A stretch of 43,197 bases of DNA from a bacterium (GTDB lineage Bacteria > Zixibacteria > MSB-5A5 > WJJR01): contig DATMBC010000016.1 of assembly GCA_035559435.1 (NCBI GenBank), forward strand, positions 1 through 43,197, read 5' to 3'. Shown here piece by piece: positions 7,305-14,629 of the stretch (positions are counted from its first letter, which is position 1; the number at the start of each line of letters is the position of its first letter). The translations under genes were made by a program, and so were the position numbers. Under the pieces are notes generated by a model. The model was given only the letters and a program-made list of their open reading frames with translations, was not told where the DNA came from and searched no databases.

Positions 7305-7747
7305 ACACGTTTGCACAAGCGACTTTGGACTTGTATACCGGAGCGTTTCGGTTATCTTTCCGGGCGAGGGCTTTATCCCGGCGAACGGGGCCGGATAATA
7401 CCACAACTGCAATTCCTCGCCGCCTTCCATCCCGCTATTACCCCGCGCCCGTAGCGGCGAATACTTGATACCAACTGGGAGGGCGTCCGCGCGCTCGTGA
7501 CCGAGGCCCTGCCTGCGCGTCGGCGCGCGCTTGAAGCGCTTTGTAGCTAGACCGTTGCTCCGCCCTTTCGAAGTCGGGCACGGCTTCCGTGTCGAGGCCA
7601 TGATATGCACTCGGCAGTTATCGCCTCTGCACGTCCCGGCGCTGACGCAATCGGGCTCATGTCGCCGATCGGCGGGATCAGAGGCGGGGCGCCTCACGAG
7701 GTGCAACAATTACCATCCTCGAACACCACATCACCATGGAGGACTCC
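7305..7747. other. Noncoding spacer before the secreted-protein cluster
   Basis: This 440-bp divergent spacer contains open frames on both strands, but none has family similarity or a good ribosome-binding site. I find no clear promoter for the 7748 gene. The Shine-Dalgarno GGAGG at 7738-7742 decides the start at 7748. Confidence 0.5.
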
Positions 7748-10057
7748 ATGCTGAAACGCACGAACATCGTCATCGTCATGCTTCTGGGAATGTGGTCATC
7801 TGCCTTGGCGGCGACGCCCGCTTCGATAACGATTCAAGGGCAGCTGACCGATTCGAGCGGCGTGCCCCTCGCCGCGGGGCAGTACACTGTCGTGTTTCGG
7901 ATCTTCGACTCGCAGGGCGGCAGCTCGCAAGTCTGGCCGGTCGGGCCAGGAGAAAGCCAGACAATCGTGGTTTTGGACGGCGGTCTGTGGACCGGGGCCC
8001 TCGGGGCCGTGTCGCCGTTGTCGGATGCCGTGTTTGCCGAGCCCATCCGTTGGCTGGAGGTGGAAATCGACGGGACGATTTTGCCACGGATTCCTCTCGT
8101 CACGGCGCCGTATGCCTTCCGCGTGGCGACCGTTGATGGAGCATCGGGCGGGACCATCACCTCGAAGTTGTCCGTCGGACCGGGGCATACAAACACCGGC
8201 GGACACGCGTTCACCGCCGGCGCCAACAACAACGTCTCTGGAATGTGGGCGACCGCTCCCGGAGGATCCGGTAATGATGCGACCGGCGAAGGGGCGGTTG
8301 TGGGAGGCGGAACCGACAACACGGCAAGCGCGACACGCGCAACGGTCGCCGGCGGCAGCCTCAACGAGGCGTCCGCCGATCAAAGTTTCATCGGCGGAGG
8401 CCAGGTCAATTTTGCCAGCGGCTACGGGGCGGTGGTCGCGGGCGGCATCGGGAATGTCGCCAGCGGCATCGGCGCATCCTCCGGCGGCGGGTCCTCCAAC
8501 TTCTCCGCGGGGAATTACTCAACGGTCGCCGGCGGATTTGACAACGGGGCCGCCGACTCGGCCGCCATTGGCGGCGGCGCTCGCAACCTGGCCAACGGCA
8601 TCGGATCGACGATCGGCGGCGGCGGCGGGCCGTTGCTTTCCGATTCCAACATTGCCATCGGAACGTGGGCGACGATCGGCGGCGGACGCGGACACATCGT
8701 CAACGGTGACGGTTCCACAATCGCCGGCGGAGAATACAATCAAGCCACCGATGAGGAAGTATTTGTCGGCGGTGGCGCCGATAACATCGCCGATGCCCCC
8801 AACGCGGCCATCGCGGGTGGGTCCCGGAACGTCGCGACCGGCACGTTGTCCTACGTCGGCGGCGGCGGATATAACAAAGCACGGGGGAGCCGATCGGTTG
8901 TCAGTGGCGGTGGCGGGACACAGCCGCTCGATTCCAATGCCGCCTCCGGGACTGTCGCGGTCATCTCCGGCGGTGCCCGCAACGCGGCGTCCGGAAATTT
9001 CAGTGTGATTGGAGGCGGATTCAATAACTCGGCGAATGGGAGCCAGTTTGCGACGATAGGCGGAGGATCCTCCAATGTCTCCGGTGGGCAGTACTCCACC
9101 GTCGGTGGCGGCGGTGACAATCGAGCAGTGGGCAGTCTGTCAACGGTTGGCGGTGGCGCATCCAATCGCGCCTATGGCGAAGGAGCGGTCGTGTCAGGGG
9201 GTGGAGGGTGGGCCTTTGCCGATTCCAACGTGGCCGGGGGAAATTTTGCCATGGTTCTCGGCGGCGTCCGCAACTACGCCATGGGAAATGGCTCGCTGGC
9301 CGCGGGGTACAATGCCCGCGCGCTCCATCATGGAAGTTTTGTCTGGGCGGACTCCAGCGACGGCGCAAGCTTCGCCTCGACCGACGACGACCAGTTCCTC
9401 ATCCGCGCCGACGGTGGAGTCGGGATCGGCACCAATCAGCCGTATGCGGGGCTGACCATCGCGACCGACTTGGGATTCGAAAACGGCACTACGCCGATCA
9501 TTTTCATGAATGAAACGGCCTCGGCGAACGCGCGGATGATCCTGTCGCACTCTCCCATCTTCTCTGGCTGGGGGCTGCAGTATCAGGACACGGACGACGA
9601 GTTCTTGTTCAAGAAGACAGATCTATTCGGCCAGATTACCACCGAAGTCTTCTCTGTCAACCTCGGAACTGAGCGCGTCGGCATCGGCGTGCAAAACCCG
9701 ACCCATATACTGCAAGTGGAGCAGTCATCGCCGACCGATCCCATCGCCGATGCGTGGACCGTCTACTCCTCCCGCCGTTGGAAAACCGATGTCCATCCCC
9801 TGCCTCATCCGCTGGAAACCATAGCGAGACTCCGCGGAGTCGGTTATCGGTGGAAGACGACCGGGCAGAGCGACATTGGCCTGATTGCCGAGGAAGTCGG
9901 TGAAGTGATTCCCCAGATCGTGCAGTACGAAGCCAACGGCGTAGATGCGCAGTCGGTCGACTACGCGCGTCTCGTTGCGCTCCTGATTGAAGGCATCAAG
10001 GAGCAGCAGGCGCGAATCGACGCGCTCGAAGCCAAGCTGAACCAGTTGGCACCATAG
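7748..10057 (+). CDS. Secreted YadA-head-like fibre with S74 self-cleaving chaperone domain
   Basis: A 769-residue protein with a Sec signal peptide (residues 1 to about 21, ending near 'ALAA'). Residues of about 23-135 form a domain shared with the next two genes ('ITIQGQLTDSSGVPL', 'VVFRIFD', 'LVTAPYAFRV'). Residues of about 165-535 are many copies of a 'GGGxxNxASGxxSxVAGG' repeat, the pattern of left-handed beta-roll heads in trimeric YadA/Hep_Hag adhesins. The C-terminus is a peptidase S74 (endosialidase-type) intramolecular chaperone: the Ser-Lys dyad pattern is S674-S-R-R-W-K679, followed by 'GLIAEEVGEVIP' and a coiled-coil end 'KEQQARIDALEAKL'. This family trimerises and then cleaves itself off. 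The protein is inferred to be a surface or secreted trimeric fibre. The start has GGAGG five bases upstream. Confidence 0.85.
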   Translation: MLKRTNIVIVMLLGMWSSALAATPASITIQGQLTDSSGVPLAAGQYTVVFRIFDSQGGSSQVWPVGPGESQTIVVLDGGLWTGALGAVSPLSDAVFAEPIRWLEVEIDGTILPRIPLVTAPYAFRVATVDGASGGTITSKLSVGPGHTNTGGHAFTAGANNNVSGMWATAPGGSGNDATGEGAVVGGGTDNTASATRATVAGGSLNEASADQSFIGGGQVNFASGYGAVVAGGIGNVASGIGASSGGGSSNFSAGNYSTVAGGFDNGAADSAAIGGGARNLANGIGSTIGGGGGPLLSDSNIAIGTWATIGGGRGHIVNGDGSTIAGGEYNQATDEEVFVGGGADNIADAPNAAIAGGSRNVATGTLSYVGGGGYNKARGSRSVVSGGGGTQPLDSNAASGTVAVISGGARNAASGNFSVIGGGFNNSANGSQFATIGGGSSNVSGGQYSTVGGGGDNRAVGSLSTVGGGASNRAYGEGAVVSGGGGWAFADSNVAGGNFAMVLGGVRNYAMGNGSLAAGYNARALHHGSFVWADSSDGASFASTDDDQFLIRADGGVGIGTNQPYAGLTIATDLGFENGTTPIIFMNETASANARMILSHSPIFSGWGLQYQDTDDEFLFKKTDLFGQITTEVFSVNLGTERVGIGVQNPTHILQVEQSSPTDPIADAWTVYSSRRWKTDVHPLPHPLETIARLRGVGYRWKTTGQSDIGLIAEEVGEVIPQIVQYEANGVDAQSVDYARLVALLIEGIKEQQARIDALEAKLNQLAP

Positions 10058-10068
10058 CGGAGATCGCC

Positions 10069-10830
10069 GTGCGCCTCCTGATTGTTGCTTCTCTGATGTG
10101 GGCTGTCGCGGTGGTGGCCGGATCGGCCGCCGTTCCGGCCAGCATCACTGTGCAGGGTGTGTTGACCGATTCGCTCGGTTCTCCCCTGCCGCCGGGAGTC
10201 CGCGCCTTCACTTTTCGCATCTACGATGCGGCCGCAAATGGCAACGAGATCTGGCCGGGCGAGACCGGAGAAATCCAGAGTATCGCCAGCGATGCGAACG
10301 GCCGTTGGGTGGCCCTGGTCGGCGCCCTGTCGCCGTTGTCGGATACGGTCTTCGCTGATTCGACGCGCTGGCTCGATGTCACCGTGGACGGCGTCGTTCT
10401 TCCCCGTGTGCGCCTGACCACCGGCGCATATGCGTATCGTGTCGCCAGCATTGACGGCGCCCGCGGCGGCACGGTGCGTGGCTGGGTCGGCATCGAGCAG
10501 GTCAATCCGACCAGCATGCTTTCGGTCAATGGCTCGTTCGCCACGCGTGTGCGCCAGACGGCCACCAGCACGACGCTTGACGCGCAGGACCAATTCCTGA
10601 TCGTCACCGCGGGCGGTATCACAATCACCCTCCCGCCGGCGGCCACCTGCCCCGGCCGTCACTACTACATCAAGAGCCGCGTCCCTGGCACCGGTTACCA
10701 GATTCCGATCGTGGTCTCGCCCGGGTCGGGGGACACGATTGACGGCGCGAGCGTGCTCAACCTGATCGGCGTCAATCATTCCTGGACGCTGGTCAGCGAC
10801 GGCACATCGACCTGGCTGATCGTCGATTGA
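10069..10830 (+). CDS. Secreted protein sharing the N-terminal domain of the adjacent fibre proteins
   Basis: A 253-residue protein with a GTG start, 11 bp after the S74 fibre gene. A signal peptide (about 1-20, 'AVVAGSAA') precedes a domain clearly paralogous to its neighbours: 'ASITVQGVLTDSLGSPL', 'FTFRIYD', 'LSPLSDTVFADSTRWLDV', 'LTTGAYAYRVASIDGA'. The central repeats are missing. The C-terminal portion ('LIVTAGGITITLPPA' to 'WTLVSDGTSTWLIV') resembles tail-fibre or receptor-tip segments. It may be a truncated family member or a separate small subunit. Function is unknown beyond secretion. Confidence 0.75.
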   Translation: MRLLIVASLMWAVAVVAGSAAVPASITVQGVLTDSLGSPLPPGVRAFTFRIYDAAANGNEIWPGETGEIQSIASDANGRWVALVGALSPLSDTVFADSTRWLDVTVDGVVLPRVRLTTGAYAYRVASIDGARGGTVRGWVGIEQVNPTSMLSVNGSFATRVRQTATSTTLDAQDQFLIVTAGGITITLPPAATCPGRHYYIKSRVPGTGYQIPIVVSPGSGDTIDGASVLNLIGVNHSWTLVSDGTSTWLIVD

Positions 10831-10909
10831 AGGCCCCGCAGGAGTTCAAATGTCGCCGCTCGCGTTGTTAGCGAGGGGAAGCAATCGGCATTCCAACGAG
10901 GAGGTTGCC

Positions 10910-12724
10910 ATGCGCACTATGCCCGCACGTTTGGCCATGGCCTTGACGATGGCATTCGTCCTGGCTCAGCCCGCTTTGTCGGCGCCCCCGCAATTGGTGA
11001 ATTACCAGGGCGAGGTGACCGATGGCGGTGTTCCCGTGGCGGACGGGAACTATTCCATGGAATTCCGCATCTATGCCCTCTCCGTCGGTGGCGTCGCCCT
11101 CTGGTCGGAGGCGGTGGCGAATGTGCCGGTGTCCAACGGGCGGTTCAATGTCCTGCTTGGCCAGGGGACCGCTCTTCCCGAAAACGTTTTTGACGGCACG
11201 GAGCGCTGGCTCGAGGCGGTCTTTAATGCCGAAGTGCTCGCGCCGCGGGTGCGGTTGGTGACTGTCCCCTACGCGCATCGCATCTCCACCGTCGATGGCG
11301 CGACCGGCGGGAGCATCACCGGCGGTGTCGAAATCACCTACACCGACATCGCCTGGGCGCTGGATGTCCAGAACAACGGAACCGGTGGCGGCGGGCATTT
11401 TGTCAACAACCTCCCTGCGAACAGCTCCGCCGCGGTCACCGGTGTGCACATCGGCGGCGCGCCGGGCGGATCGTTTGTCAGCGAAGGCGGCACCGGCGTG
11501 GAGGGCACCAGCAACGGCGGCGGCTACGGGGTCGCGGGCGTGAGTCTGTACGGCACCGGCGTCTATGGGCAAAGCATTGGCGCCGCTGACAGCGCCAGCG
11601 CCATCCATGGTGTCCTGACCAGCCCGACTCCGGGCACTTTCTCCGCCGCAGTCCGTGGCGAGAGCAACGGACTTTTCAGCACAGGCATCGGAGTCTGGGG
11701 ATCGCATCCGGCGCTGGGGTGGGGTGTGTACGGGACTTCGAACACCGGGCGCGGTGTTTATGGCGAAGCGGTCAGCGGACAGGGGGTGCGCGGATTCAGC
11801 GCCTCTGGCACGGGTGTCCACGGCACGACCACGACGGGAACCGGCGTGGTCGGTGAGAACTTCAGTTCGGCAGGCGATGAGTACGGCGTCCATGGGATAC
11901 TCAACAACGCCTCGGGCGGCGCGTTCTCGGCCGGGGTCCGCGGTGAAAACCGCAGCACCGGCGCGGGCGGGGTCGGTGTCTACGGCTCCCAGGATGGCTC
12001 CGGCTGGGGTGTCTACGGCTTCTCGGGCAGCAGCGGGCGCGGAGTCTACGGCAATTGCGCGTCGGGTACCGGGGTCTACGGGAACTCGTCAAGCGGCACT
12101 GGTGTCCGCGGTCACTCCGCCAATGGTGTGGCGGCACAATTCACCGGGACACGCGTGGAAGTGCTCGGGGGATCCGATGCCTCCAGCGCCAGCACCACCG
12201 ACGGCTATTTAATCGTCGGCAACGGCGGCGGGATCAACATCGCCATCGACAACAACGAGATCATCGCGCGCGACAACGGGGCCACGTCGCTTCTGCATCT
12301 GCAGGCCGATGGAGGTCAGGTGGGGATCGGCCTGCAGGGGCTGACCGTGCCGGCGGGCTTCATCTTTGCCGTCGACGGCAAGGCGATGATGGAGGAGGTC
12401 GAAGTCCAATTGTCGGGGGATTGGCCCGATTACGTGTTCGAGCCGGACTACCACCTGATGCCGTTAGACGATCTGGCCGCACATGTGCGCGCGCTAAAAC
12501 ACCTGCCGGGGATTCCCCCGCAATCCGAAATGCAGTCCGCCCGTCTGCCTGTCGGCGAGATGCAGGTCAAGCTGCTCGAAAAGATCGAAGAACTGACGCT
12601 CTACATCCTGCAATTGAAGAATCGTCTCGATAACGCGGAAACTGAGAATATCGCGCTGCGCGAGCGAGTGGCGGCCATCGAGACCGGATACAAGGGAGGC
12701 GCCAATGACGACATCCGCCCTTAA
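10910..12724 (+). CDS. Secreted 'GVYG'-repeat fibre with tail-fibre-like C-terminus
   Basis: A 604-residue protein with a signal peptide (about 1-24, 'AQPALSA') and the same N-terminal domain as the two preceding genes ('LVNYQGEVTDGGVPV', 'MEFRIYA', 'RLVTVPYAHRISTVDGA'). Residues of about 155-415 are short Gly-rich repeats of the type 'GTGVYGxSxSGxGVxG', likely beta-structured. The C-terminus 'WPDYVFEPDYHLMPLDDL', 'HLPGIP' and 'GEMQVKLLEKIEELTLYIL' is a trimerising tail-fibre/Bacteroidota-type end with a coiled coil. The ATG at 10910 follows GAGGAGG and precedes the signal peptide, so the longer reading from 10850 is rejected. The stop overlaps the next start by 20 bp. Confidence 0.82.
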   Translation: MRTMPARLAMALTMAFVLAQPALSAPPQLVNYQGEVTDGGVPVADGNYSMEFRIYALSVGGVALWSEAVANVPVSNGRFNVLLGQGTALPENVFDGTERWLEAVFNAEVLAPRVRLVTVPYAHRISTVDGATGGSITGGVEITYTDIAWALDVQNNGTGGGGHFVNNLPANSSAAVTGVHIGGAPGGSFVSEGGTGVEGTSNGGGYGVAGVSLYGTGVYGQSIGAADSASAIHGVLTSPTPGTFSAAVRGESNGLFSTGIGVWGSHPALGWGVYGTSNTGRGVYGEAVSGQGVRGFSASGTGVHGTTTTGTGVVGENFSSAGDEYGVHGILNNASGGAFSAGVRGENRSTGAGGVGVYGSQDGSGWGVYGFSGSSGRGVYGNCASGTGVYGNSSSGTGVRGHSANGVAAQFTGTRVEVLGGSDASSASTTDGYLIVGNGGGINIAIDNNEIIARDNGATSLLHLQADGGQVGIGLQGLTVPAGFIFAVDGKAMMEEVEVQLSGDWPDYVFEPDYHLMPLDDLAAHVRALKHLPGIPPQSEMQSARLPVGEMQVKLLEKIEELTLYILQLKNRLDNAETENIALRERVAAIETGYKGGANDDIRP

Positions 12725-13928
12725 GCGATGGTTTGTCGCTCTGACGGCGACGATCGTCGGTATGGCGGCCACCGTCGCGTTCGCCCAGGAGCCGCCGGAC
12801 CTCGGCGACGATGAAGTTGTCGAGAACGTTATTGGTCGGATCAGCAAGAAACGGGCGCGACAGGGACAGACGCTGACCTTTGAAGTCGTCTCCCCGTCCG
12901 CGCCTGATCCCGGGATTCAGTTGATCGCCACGGACCTGCCGCCCGGCGCCTCGTTCACCGACCGCGGGAACGGCTATGGACTGTTCACGTGGACGCCGGT
13001 GACCGGTCAGGAGGGCGAGTATGCGCCGGTCATCAGCGAGCGTCCCGCCGGCAAAAGCATCCCGGCCGGAGGCGCGCCCGTCCCCGTCGTTGTCGGCGGT
13101 TACCCCCTCTCGCATGGCTGGTATCGCATTCCCTACGGCGACGGCGAACCGATCCGTGTCTCGCGCGACCATGTCACTCACTCGCCTCCCATCAAGGAGG
13201 ACTGGGTCGCCGTGGGCGGCGGCCCCACGCAGCAGATACCCATCGTGGCCGCGGCCGATGGCCGCATCCGCAGCATCGTCGACGACAACACCAAATGCTG
13301 CGCCGACAATGCGAATGATATCAACTGCTCGGCCTGCAACAACTCCGTCTGGATCGAGCACAGCAACGGCGAGTGGACCAAGTATTCGCACTTCCAGACC
13401 GGCACCGTCACCAGCCCGTTCGTGGCCAACCTCGACACCAATGACTGCGTCGTGCAGGGGCAGTTGCTGGGTTACGAAGGGCAGATCGGCCACACCAGCG
13501 GCAACGACGCCCAGCAGACGATGTGCGCCGAGCCGCTGGTCGACACGACCAAACGCTGCGGCATCCACCTGCACTGGGAGGTGCGGTACAACCAGGATGA
13601 GAACTTTCTGCGGGTCCCGATTCTCTGCGGTGTGGATGGATGGATTGCCTTCGCCGGCGACACGATCCTGGCGGCGCAATGCAACGGTTTTGGTTGCGAG
13701 ACCGACGTGGTGATCGGCAACGGCGTCATCGGCGGGAGCGCCATGACGGTCACCACCGCCGACAATTCGATTACCAGCGAGGGTATCTATACCGGATCGA
13801 CGAGCACGGCCTATTTCGCAGGCAACCGGATCACCTTGCAGCCCGGGTTTGCGGTCCGGGCAGGGACATACTTTCACGCGATGATCAAGCCGTGCGAGAA
13901 CAGCCCCAGTGGTTGCCCGCCGGAGTAG
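12705..13928 (+). CDS. Secreted LytM/M23-like protein with coathanger-type C-terminal domain
   Basis: A 407-residue protein with a signal peptide (about 1-27, 'ATVAFAQ') and a Put-Ig-like segment ('GIQLIATDLPPGASF', 'YGLFTWTPVTGQEGEY'). A LytM/M23-type beta-sandwich follows: 'PIVAAADGRIRSI', 'VWIEHSNGEWTKYSHF', 'VQGQLLGYEGQIGHTSG' and 'CGIHLHWEVRY'. The HLH of the metal site is present, but I cannot find the usual upstream H-x-x-x-D, so activity is doubtful. Several Cys residues are inserted in loops. The end 'GNRITLQPGFAVRAGTYFHA' matches the C-terminal '3-coathanger stack' style. The ATG at 12705 overlaps the preceding gene and has GGGAGG five bases upstream, implying translational coupling. 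Confidence 0.75.
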   Translation: MTTSALKRWFVALTATIVGMAATVAFAQEPPDLGDDEVVENVIGRISKKRARQGQTLTFEVVSPSAPDPGIQLIATDLPPGASFTDRGNGYGLFTWTPVTGQEGEYAPVISERPAGKSIPAGGAPVPVVVGGYPLSHGWYRIPYGDGEPIRVSRDHVTHSPPIKEDWVAVGGGPTQQIPIVAAADGRIRSIVDDNTKCCADNANDINCSACNNSVWIEHSNGEWTKYSHFQTGTVTSPFVANLDTNDCVVQGQLLGYEGQIGHTSGNDAQQTMCAEPLVDTTKRCGIHLHWEVRYNQDENFLRVPILCGVDGWIAFAGDTILAAQCNGFGCETDVVIGNGVIGGSAMTVTTADNSITSEGIYTGSTSTAYFAGNRITLQPGFAVRAGTYFHAMIKPCENSPSGCPPE

Positions 13929-14032: not shown

Positions 14033-14629
14033 GTGAAGCGCATTGCAACGACTTTGGGTGTTTTGATCGTCGCGCTGACGGCCGCGACAGCCGCCGCACC
14101 AGGCCAGAAGGCCGTGGTCCACGCGCCGTCAACCACAGCCGCCACGACGGCGCAGTCTCCGGAAGAGGCACCTTCCGCGACCGTGGTCCAAGCTGCGGCG
14201 TTAAACGGGATGGCCGGCTACGCTATCGACTGGTCCTCAATCAATGGGGGCGGCGCGATCGATGCCGCTTCGCCGAACTACCGGCTGGGAAGTTCCGTCG
14301 GCCAATCGGTCGCCGGGGCGGCATCCTCGGCCAATCACCGGATGGGGATCGGATTCTGGTATGGCGCGAACGCCGGCGGCTGCGCCTGCGACTGCCATGG
14401 CGACCCGGTCTGCGATGCGGTGATCAGCAACGTGCAGGATGTCGTGGTCACGGTCAACGTCGCCTTCCGCGGCGCGGCTCCGGTGGTCGATCCCAATGGC
14501 GCCTGCCCGTATGAGACCACCGATCTGAACTGCGATGGGGCGACCAGCGTCATCGACGTGGTCAAGATCGTCAATGTGGCCTTCCGCGGCGCCAATCCGG
14601 CCACCGAGTATTGCAATCCCTGTGCCTGA
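14033..14629 (+). CDS. Small secreted protein with Cys-rich paired dockerin-like C-terminus
   Basis: A 198-residue protein. The GTG start at 14033 has a near-perfect Shine-Dalgarno (GGAGGTGA) and opens directly into a signal peptide ('LGVLIVALTAATAAA'). The middle, 'YAIDWSSINGGGAIDAASPNYRLGSSVGQ' in part, resembles the N-terminal segment of many FCB-type secreted proteins. The last 80 residues hold two F-hand-like modules: 'CDCHGDPVCDAVISNVQDVV', then 'DLNCDGATSVIDVVKIVN' with the Ca-loop spacing D-x-N-C-D-G-x5-D. Each module ends in 'VNVAFRG', and the protein ends 'C-N-P-C-A'. Three other proteins in the window share this tail. It is likely exported and retained at the surface through the tail (inference). 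Confidence 0.75.
   Translation: MKRIATTLGVLIVALTAATAAAPGQKAVVHAPSTTAATTAQSPEEAPSATVVQAAALNGMAGYAIDWSSINGGGAIDAASPNYRLGSSVGQSVAGAASSANHRMGIGFWYGANAGGCACDCHGDPVCDAVISNVQDVVVTVNVAFRGAAPVVDPNGACPYETTDLNCDGATSVIDVVKIVNVAFRGANPATEYCNPCA

Follow-up and report, generated by a model that had tools for sequence, protein, structure and literature searches.

The closest described counterparts of the proteins studied here are the mosaic adhesive trimer (MAT) fibres with which the predator Bdellovibrio bacteriovorus binds its prey (Caulton et al. 2024, PMC10769870; NF053851). According to that report, published MATs all carry a beta-rich domain of ~130 residues right after the signal peptide and have S74 or non-S74 ends, and the surface element that holds the base of the fibre is not known. 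We analysed a 43,197-nucleotide stretch of DNA (the window; contig DATMBC010000016.1, positions 1 to 43,197, of assembly GCA_035559435.1) from a bacterium of the phylum Zixibacteria, in which three consecutive genes, here called P1, P2 and P3 (7748-12724), encode secreted fibre-type proteins. MAT fibres share with these proteins the signal peptide, a homologous beta-rich base of ~115-130 residues, a body of repeats, tips of S74 or non-S74 type, paralogues in multiple copies and capping-loop motifs. The proteins described here differ in that the N-terminal domains (N-domains) of their own genome score under the NF053851 cut-off, in a much wider taxonomic spread, and in being often paired with a gene for an anchor-bearing protein, the GFW protein, of which the sections of the MAT report consulted make no mention.

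Results

A MAT-type base domain in three fibre genes

Genes were called from open frames, and most of the genomes compared are metagenome-assembled genomes (MAGs). Each of P1, P2 and P3 begins with a Sec-type signal peptide, as read from the sequence, directly followed by a shared domain of ~115 residues that ends at about residue 140. In pairwise BLASTP the identity of this domain was 52% between P1 and P2 (E 4e-38), 40% between P1 and P3 (E 4e-20) and 37% between P2 and P3 (E 1e-17), and the last 110 residues of the three proteins had no mutual similarity. At these identities a chance origin of the common domain is excluded. The original prediction had described three consecutive secreted fibre-type genes with a common N-terminal domain and different bodies, which this comparison of domains and ends confirmed. 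The motifs it gave for the domain (QG-x-LTD, FRIYD/FRIFD and LxxxPYAxR) were too strict, since P3 reads QGEVTD and FRIYA, and P2 reads TGAYAYR.

When 54 aligned N-domain copies were scanned singly, 50 matched the MAT N-domain model NF053851 of NCBIfam (E<=0.01, best E 8e-11); the 54 copies had no further family in common in that scan. No relatives of the domain were found in Pfam, PHROGs or PDB. Judged by these profile matches, the shared domain and the base of Bdellovibrio MAT fibres are homologues. The curated cut-off of 60 bits, which describes the Bdellovibrio subfamily, was not reached (best own-genome score 34 bits); on this measure the domains here are relatives of that subfamily and not members of it. 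An AlphaFold model from four sequences predicted a beta sandwich for the base domain, reported here for P3, with predicted local distance difference test (pLDDT) values of about 80-90 over residues 11-80, and a model of the whole of P2 was good for the N-domain only. A search for similar folds found nothing at E<1e-3 in PDB or a viral library; the MAT report likewise gives no PDB homologue for the MAT N-domain.

The own genome has 18 N-domain profile hits in about 17 genes, four of them in tandem on one contig (C106), and these copies carry differing bodies, as had been expected of a domain attached genome-wide to variable bodies. The domain was present in 120 of 132 genomes of the phylum, with up to 27 matches in one genome, in 43 of 148 Bacteroidota genomes (the phylum of a Chitinophagaceae MAG) and in 24 of 149 Planctomycetota genomes (the phylum of an Anammoxibacter MAG). 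Part of this distribution may already be published, as the supplement of the MAT report lists some homologues in other strains. The homologous base, the split into S74 and non-S74 ends and the capping-loop motifs described below would fit fibres specific to predation that recognize prey as in Bdellovibrio. We consider this improbable, because a domain carried by so much of its own phylum, and by many Bacteroidota and Planctomycetota, fits general adhesion better. To our knowledge, there is no known predator in Zixibacteria.

A linked GFW protein carries the anchor modules

Unbiased clustering of N-domain gene neighbours in 20 Zixibacteria regions and the own genome yielded one recurrent family of small secreted proteins, in which dockerin-like repeats follow a domain of ~47 residues with GFW at its end. 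Its gene adjoins the N-domain gene on the same strand in 11 of the 20 sampled Zixibacteria loci; in the window it lies in the fibre operon, behind P3 and a peptidase gene (Table 1). In 38 relatives a GFW profile gave 87 hits, and among the matches listed at least 45 lay within 4 kb of an N-domain hit, compared with 1.24 expected under random placement (the linkage statistics ignore phylogeny). Among those 45 listed hits, 38 were downstream on the same strand, 6 upstream and 1 opposite; without the profile's own seeds, the downstream same-strand bias was 31 of 38.

The linkage extends to a second phylum. At 20 Bacteroidota loci picked solely for the N-domain, a profile built from Zixibacteria only found an immediately adjacent GFW gene in 11, all on the same strand and with both upstream and downstream cases. 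With an extended profile GFW was present at 12 of the 20 loci, and 12 of 13 GFW open reading frames (ORFs) lay within 300 bp (P about 7e-15, random placement). The kind of anchor changes between the phyla. Among 15 Zixibacteria companions the Pfam dockerin family PF00404 was found in 5 and the loop pattern in 13, whereas the C-termini of Bacteroidota GFW proteins carry the type IX secretion system (T9SS) type A sorting domain TIGR04183 in nine members of the aligned set (E<=0.01, best 2e-11). The GFW protein of locus L188 scored 32.9 bits for this domain against a cut-off of 23, and one Bacteroidota GFW protein has a choice-of-anchor U domain (5.9e-16). The fibre proteins themselves had a dockerin-like loop in 0 of 54 cases in Zixibacteria and a T9SS-like end in 1 of 25 in Bacteroidota. 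In the Planctomycetota phylum the GFW domain was found in 3 of 149 genomes, all with the N-domain and two with both on the same contig; G290 and G253 are linked exceptions there, and the GFW tail of G290 is different and has no dockerin.

Since cohesins match in 33 of the 38 relatives and occur in the own genome, dockerin-based attachment is possible. The arrangement resembles cellulosome-type cohesin-dockerin attachment in that the GFW protein has dockerin-like repeats and the genome encodes cohesin proteins of surface type. It differs in that the proposed cargo of the putative pairing is an adaptor for an adhesive fibre, not an enzyme. One cohesin gene of the own genome, on contig C54 (L180:1456-3924), encodes two cohesins, one dockerin and a T9SS/FlgD/CHU_C-like C-terminal domain, and other genomes of the family have cohesin ORFs of similar size (about 860-910 aa).

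Taken together, we favour with modest confidence the explanation that P1-P3 are adhesive fibres of MAT type and that a separate gene supplies the protein which anchors their base to the surface. Directly supported are the homology of the domain, the signals for export, the modular build, the exchange of tips at one site, and the linkage and anchor content of the GFW genes. We read the fibre as cargo and the GFW protein as adaptor because the anchorless fibre and its anchor-bearing neighbour stay together in two phyla that use different kinds of anchor. The N-domain had been proposed as the base or assembly part: a position in the proximal part of the fibre is probable, and it is seemingly not the anchor itself, since the anchor modules (dockerin-like or T9SS) are on the neighbouring GFW protein.

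Several points weigh against this explanation. Its chief weakness is that an adjacent GFW gene is missing from about half of the N-domain loci sampled, and 20 further N-domain loci of the Planctomycetota phylum yielded none (0/20). The co-occurrence of the two domains in genomes (32 with both, 5 with neither, 1 with the N-domain only; p 1e-5, phylogeny uncorrected) and phylogeny are not independent. In the window, the GFW tail has one canonical loop and no PF00404 match, and failed a stricter loop pattern. The model also offers no explanation for passage of the fibre across the outer membrane. Finally, the own genome has only 4 GFW hits against about 17 N-domain genes, so that one adaptor would have to serve many of the fibres unless some are attached by another route.

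The loci that lack an adjacent GFW gene, including most of those in the Planctomycetota phylum, would be expected if the N-domain bound some other surface element directly and the GFW protein were a co-regulated but separate surface protein, for example of matrix or pilus type, that does not touch the fibre. The candidate phyla radiation (CPR) pilus model for PamT, NF058579, points the same way, as the N-terminal part of the model (positions about 24-77) matches the GFW domain in 5 of the 15 companions (E 2.9e-7), with window:14216-14359 as an example, although far below the equivalog cut-off; the GFW domain thus exists outside fibre loci, and the match hints at a wider role in surface appendages. 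We found no paper on PamT and nothing useful on Zixibacteria adhesins in the literature searched. We nevertheless regard the separate-protein alternative as rather unlikely, because immediate same-strand adjacency is kept in two phyla despite changes in gene order and anchor type, and because it is the GFW protein that bears the anchors, which the fibre almost never does.

Bodies, tips and the question of phage origin

The body of P1 consists of a 15-residue repeat that matches the UspA1 head (PDB 3pr7, E 1e-18), and its C-terminus is an S74 domain (Pfam E 1e-10), bearing out an earlier description as a YadA-head-like body with an S74 chaperone. S74 is the sole Pfam family in P1. In contrast to the YadA/UspA1 trimeric autotransporters (type Vc), P1 thus ends in S74 instead of the C-terminal YadA membrane anchor. 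Its catalytic motif reads SSRRWK in place of SDxxxK, with Ser and Lys kept and Asp replaced by Ser. About ten own-genome paralogues also have an S74 end; SDxxxK is kept in most S74 paralogues, several of which read SDxRLK. The repeat of P3 has a period of 10 residues. In 16 own-genome members we counted 9 capping-loop-like VGxG...P...L motifs, compared with 0.06 in shuffles; the pattern used is the motif as printed in the MAT text consulted plus one position, and the literal printed form gave no match.

Two of the C-termini had been taken to be of phage tail-fibre type. Only the S74 end of P1 clearly is, with matches in 1051 phage records and in tail PHROGs. Matches to the end of P3 came from cellular, mostly Bacteroidota, records and from none of the 50,697 phage records or the viral contigs, and the P2 tip, which is common to an N-domain protein on contig C17 (41%), had one weak phage match (E 8e-3) and matched one viral contig. 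The S74 chaperone/protease at the C-terminus, as in phage tail fibres and spikes, is what could make P1-P3 tail-fibre genes of a decayed prophage or of an extracellular contractile injection system, binding target cells as part of a particle. However, the N-domain fibres are chromosomal and secreted; their Sec signal peptides, present in P1-P3 as predicted, directly precede the N-domain in nearly all of ~50 relatives. Furthermore, a search for nearby phage genes found no prophage structural genes beside the fibre genes, the N-domain is cellular, with no match in phage, plasmid or viral-contig collections, and a prophage-type S74 fibre on contig C74 of the same genome has neither N-domain nor signal peptide. 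We therefore rejected an origin from phage, prophage or an injection system, which we regard as very improbable. The C74 gene itself (L042:4598-6589) has TAAQVGA-type tail-fibre repeats, and likely belongs to a real prophage.

Bodies and tips appear to be exchanged. At the corresponding lysyl-tRNA synthetase (LysRS)/polysaccharide-deacetylase site of family members, the product of the N-domain gene has an S74 end 64% like that of P1 in G004, another S74-type end in G002 and, in G005 and G006, an unrelated end of TNF/C1q-like look (by eye only); no N-domain gene was found at this site in G001. Compared with the G004 gene, P1 is 41% identical in the N-domain and 64% in the end, and compared with C80b it is 62% and 49% identical, respectively. 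Because the two identities do not run in parallel, we suggest that modules are swapped. Short TNF/C1q-like-looking ends (by eye only; no Pfam match), recalling TNF-like MAT tips, were also seen in the N-domain proteins at L155:4212-5570, L156:14802-16100, L160:3642-4832 and L043:4149-5276. Another N-domain protein, on contig C19 (L045:4004-5707), has an end (GDLLTTADRPGHAM...GKAMTRL) that looks peptidase G2-type, with no Pfam match.

Layout of the operon

The gaps between genes are 11 bp (P1-P2) and 79 bp (P2-P3), and a Shine-Dalgarno-like GGAG stands upstream of all three starts. The M23-type peptidase is a candidate for helping the fibres through the wall, which we consider possible. Downstream of the operon, window:15121-19497 encodes a 1458-aa secreted protein with a beta-helix stretch and eleven thrombospondin type 3 repeats.

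Table 1. Fibre operon and its features, in window coordinates.
Feature	Position	Strand	Description
P1	open frame 7736-10057, better start 7748	+	start 7748 stands after GGAGGATTCC
P1 architecture	7748-10057	+	signal peptide, MAT-N-like base domain, YadA/UspA1-head-like 15-residue repeats, two VGxG..P..L capping-loop motifs, C-terminal S74 chaperone/protease
P1 N-terminal base domain	7811-8155	+	
P2	10069-10830	+	GTG start; signal peptide, base domain, short stalk, ~90-residue tip
P2 N-terminal base domain	10129-10476	+	
P3	10910-12724	+	signal peptide, base domain, GVxG 10-residue repeats, cellular (Bacteroidota-type) C-terminal domain with coiled coil
P3 N-terminal base domain	10982-11317	+	
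Secreted M23-type peptidase	12705-13928	+	C-terminal GCX_COOH (3-coathanger stack) domain; overlaps P3 stop; same operon by spacing
Companion GFW protein	14033-14629	+	signal peptide, GFW domain 14216-14359, dockerin-like tail, one clear loop DLNCDGATSVID

Discussion

In the mechanism that we propose, P1-P3 would be exported by Sec, and the fibre probably trimerises along its repeat body, of which the UspA1-like repeats and the S74 domain are indirect signs. The S74 domain of P1 would act as a folding chaperone and may cleave itself off. An exchangeable, presumably adhesive tip would be presented at the far end, while the conserved N-terminal beta sandwich would stay near the cell. Having no anchor of its own, the fibre would be held by a separate adaptor, in this operon the GFW protein, whose GFW domain may bind the fibre base. 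The C-terminal module of the adaptor would bind the cell: in Zixibacteria through a putative pairing of its dockerin-like repeats with surface cohesin proteins, and in Bacteroidota through T9SS sorting to the surface. With a single base on multiplied and swapped bodies and tips, many adhesins could be displayed via one attachment route.

More tentatively, and with slightly less than an even chance in our estimation, these loci may represent a two-gene fibre display system in at least two phyla, of which we found no description in the literature searched. It would combine a MAT-type base with a GFW adaptor bearing a lineage-specific anchor (dockerin/cohesin, T9SS sorting or choice-of-anchor). 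If so, fibres and anchors would evolve as independent modules, and the GFW adaptor could be the missing surface element of MAT fibres. The conserved anchor-bearing neighbour makes the question of what holds the MAT base testable. Through these findings the adhesin architecture of a predator becomes a near-universal trait of an uncultured phylum and is extended to parts of two further phyla.

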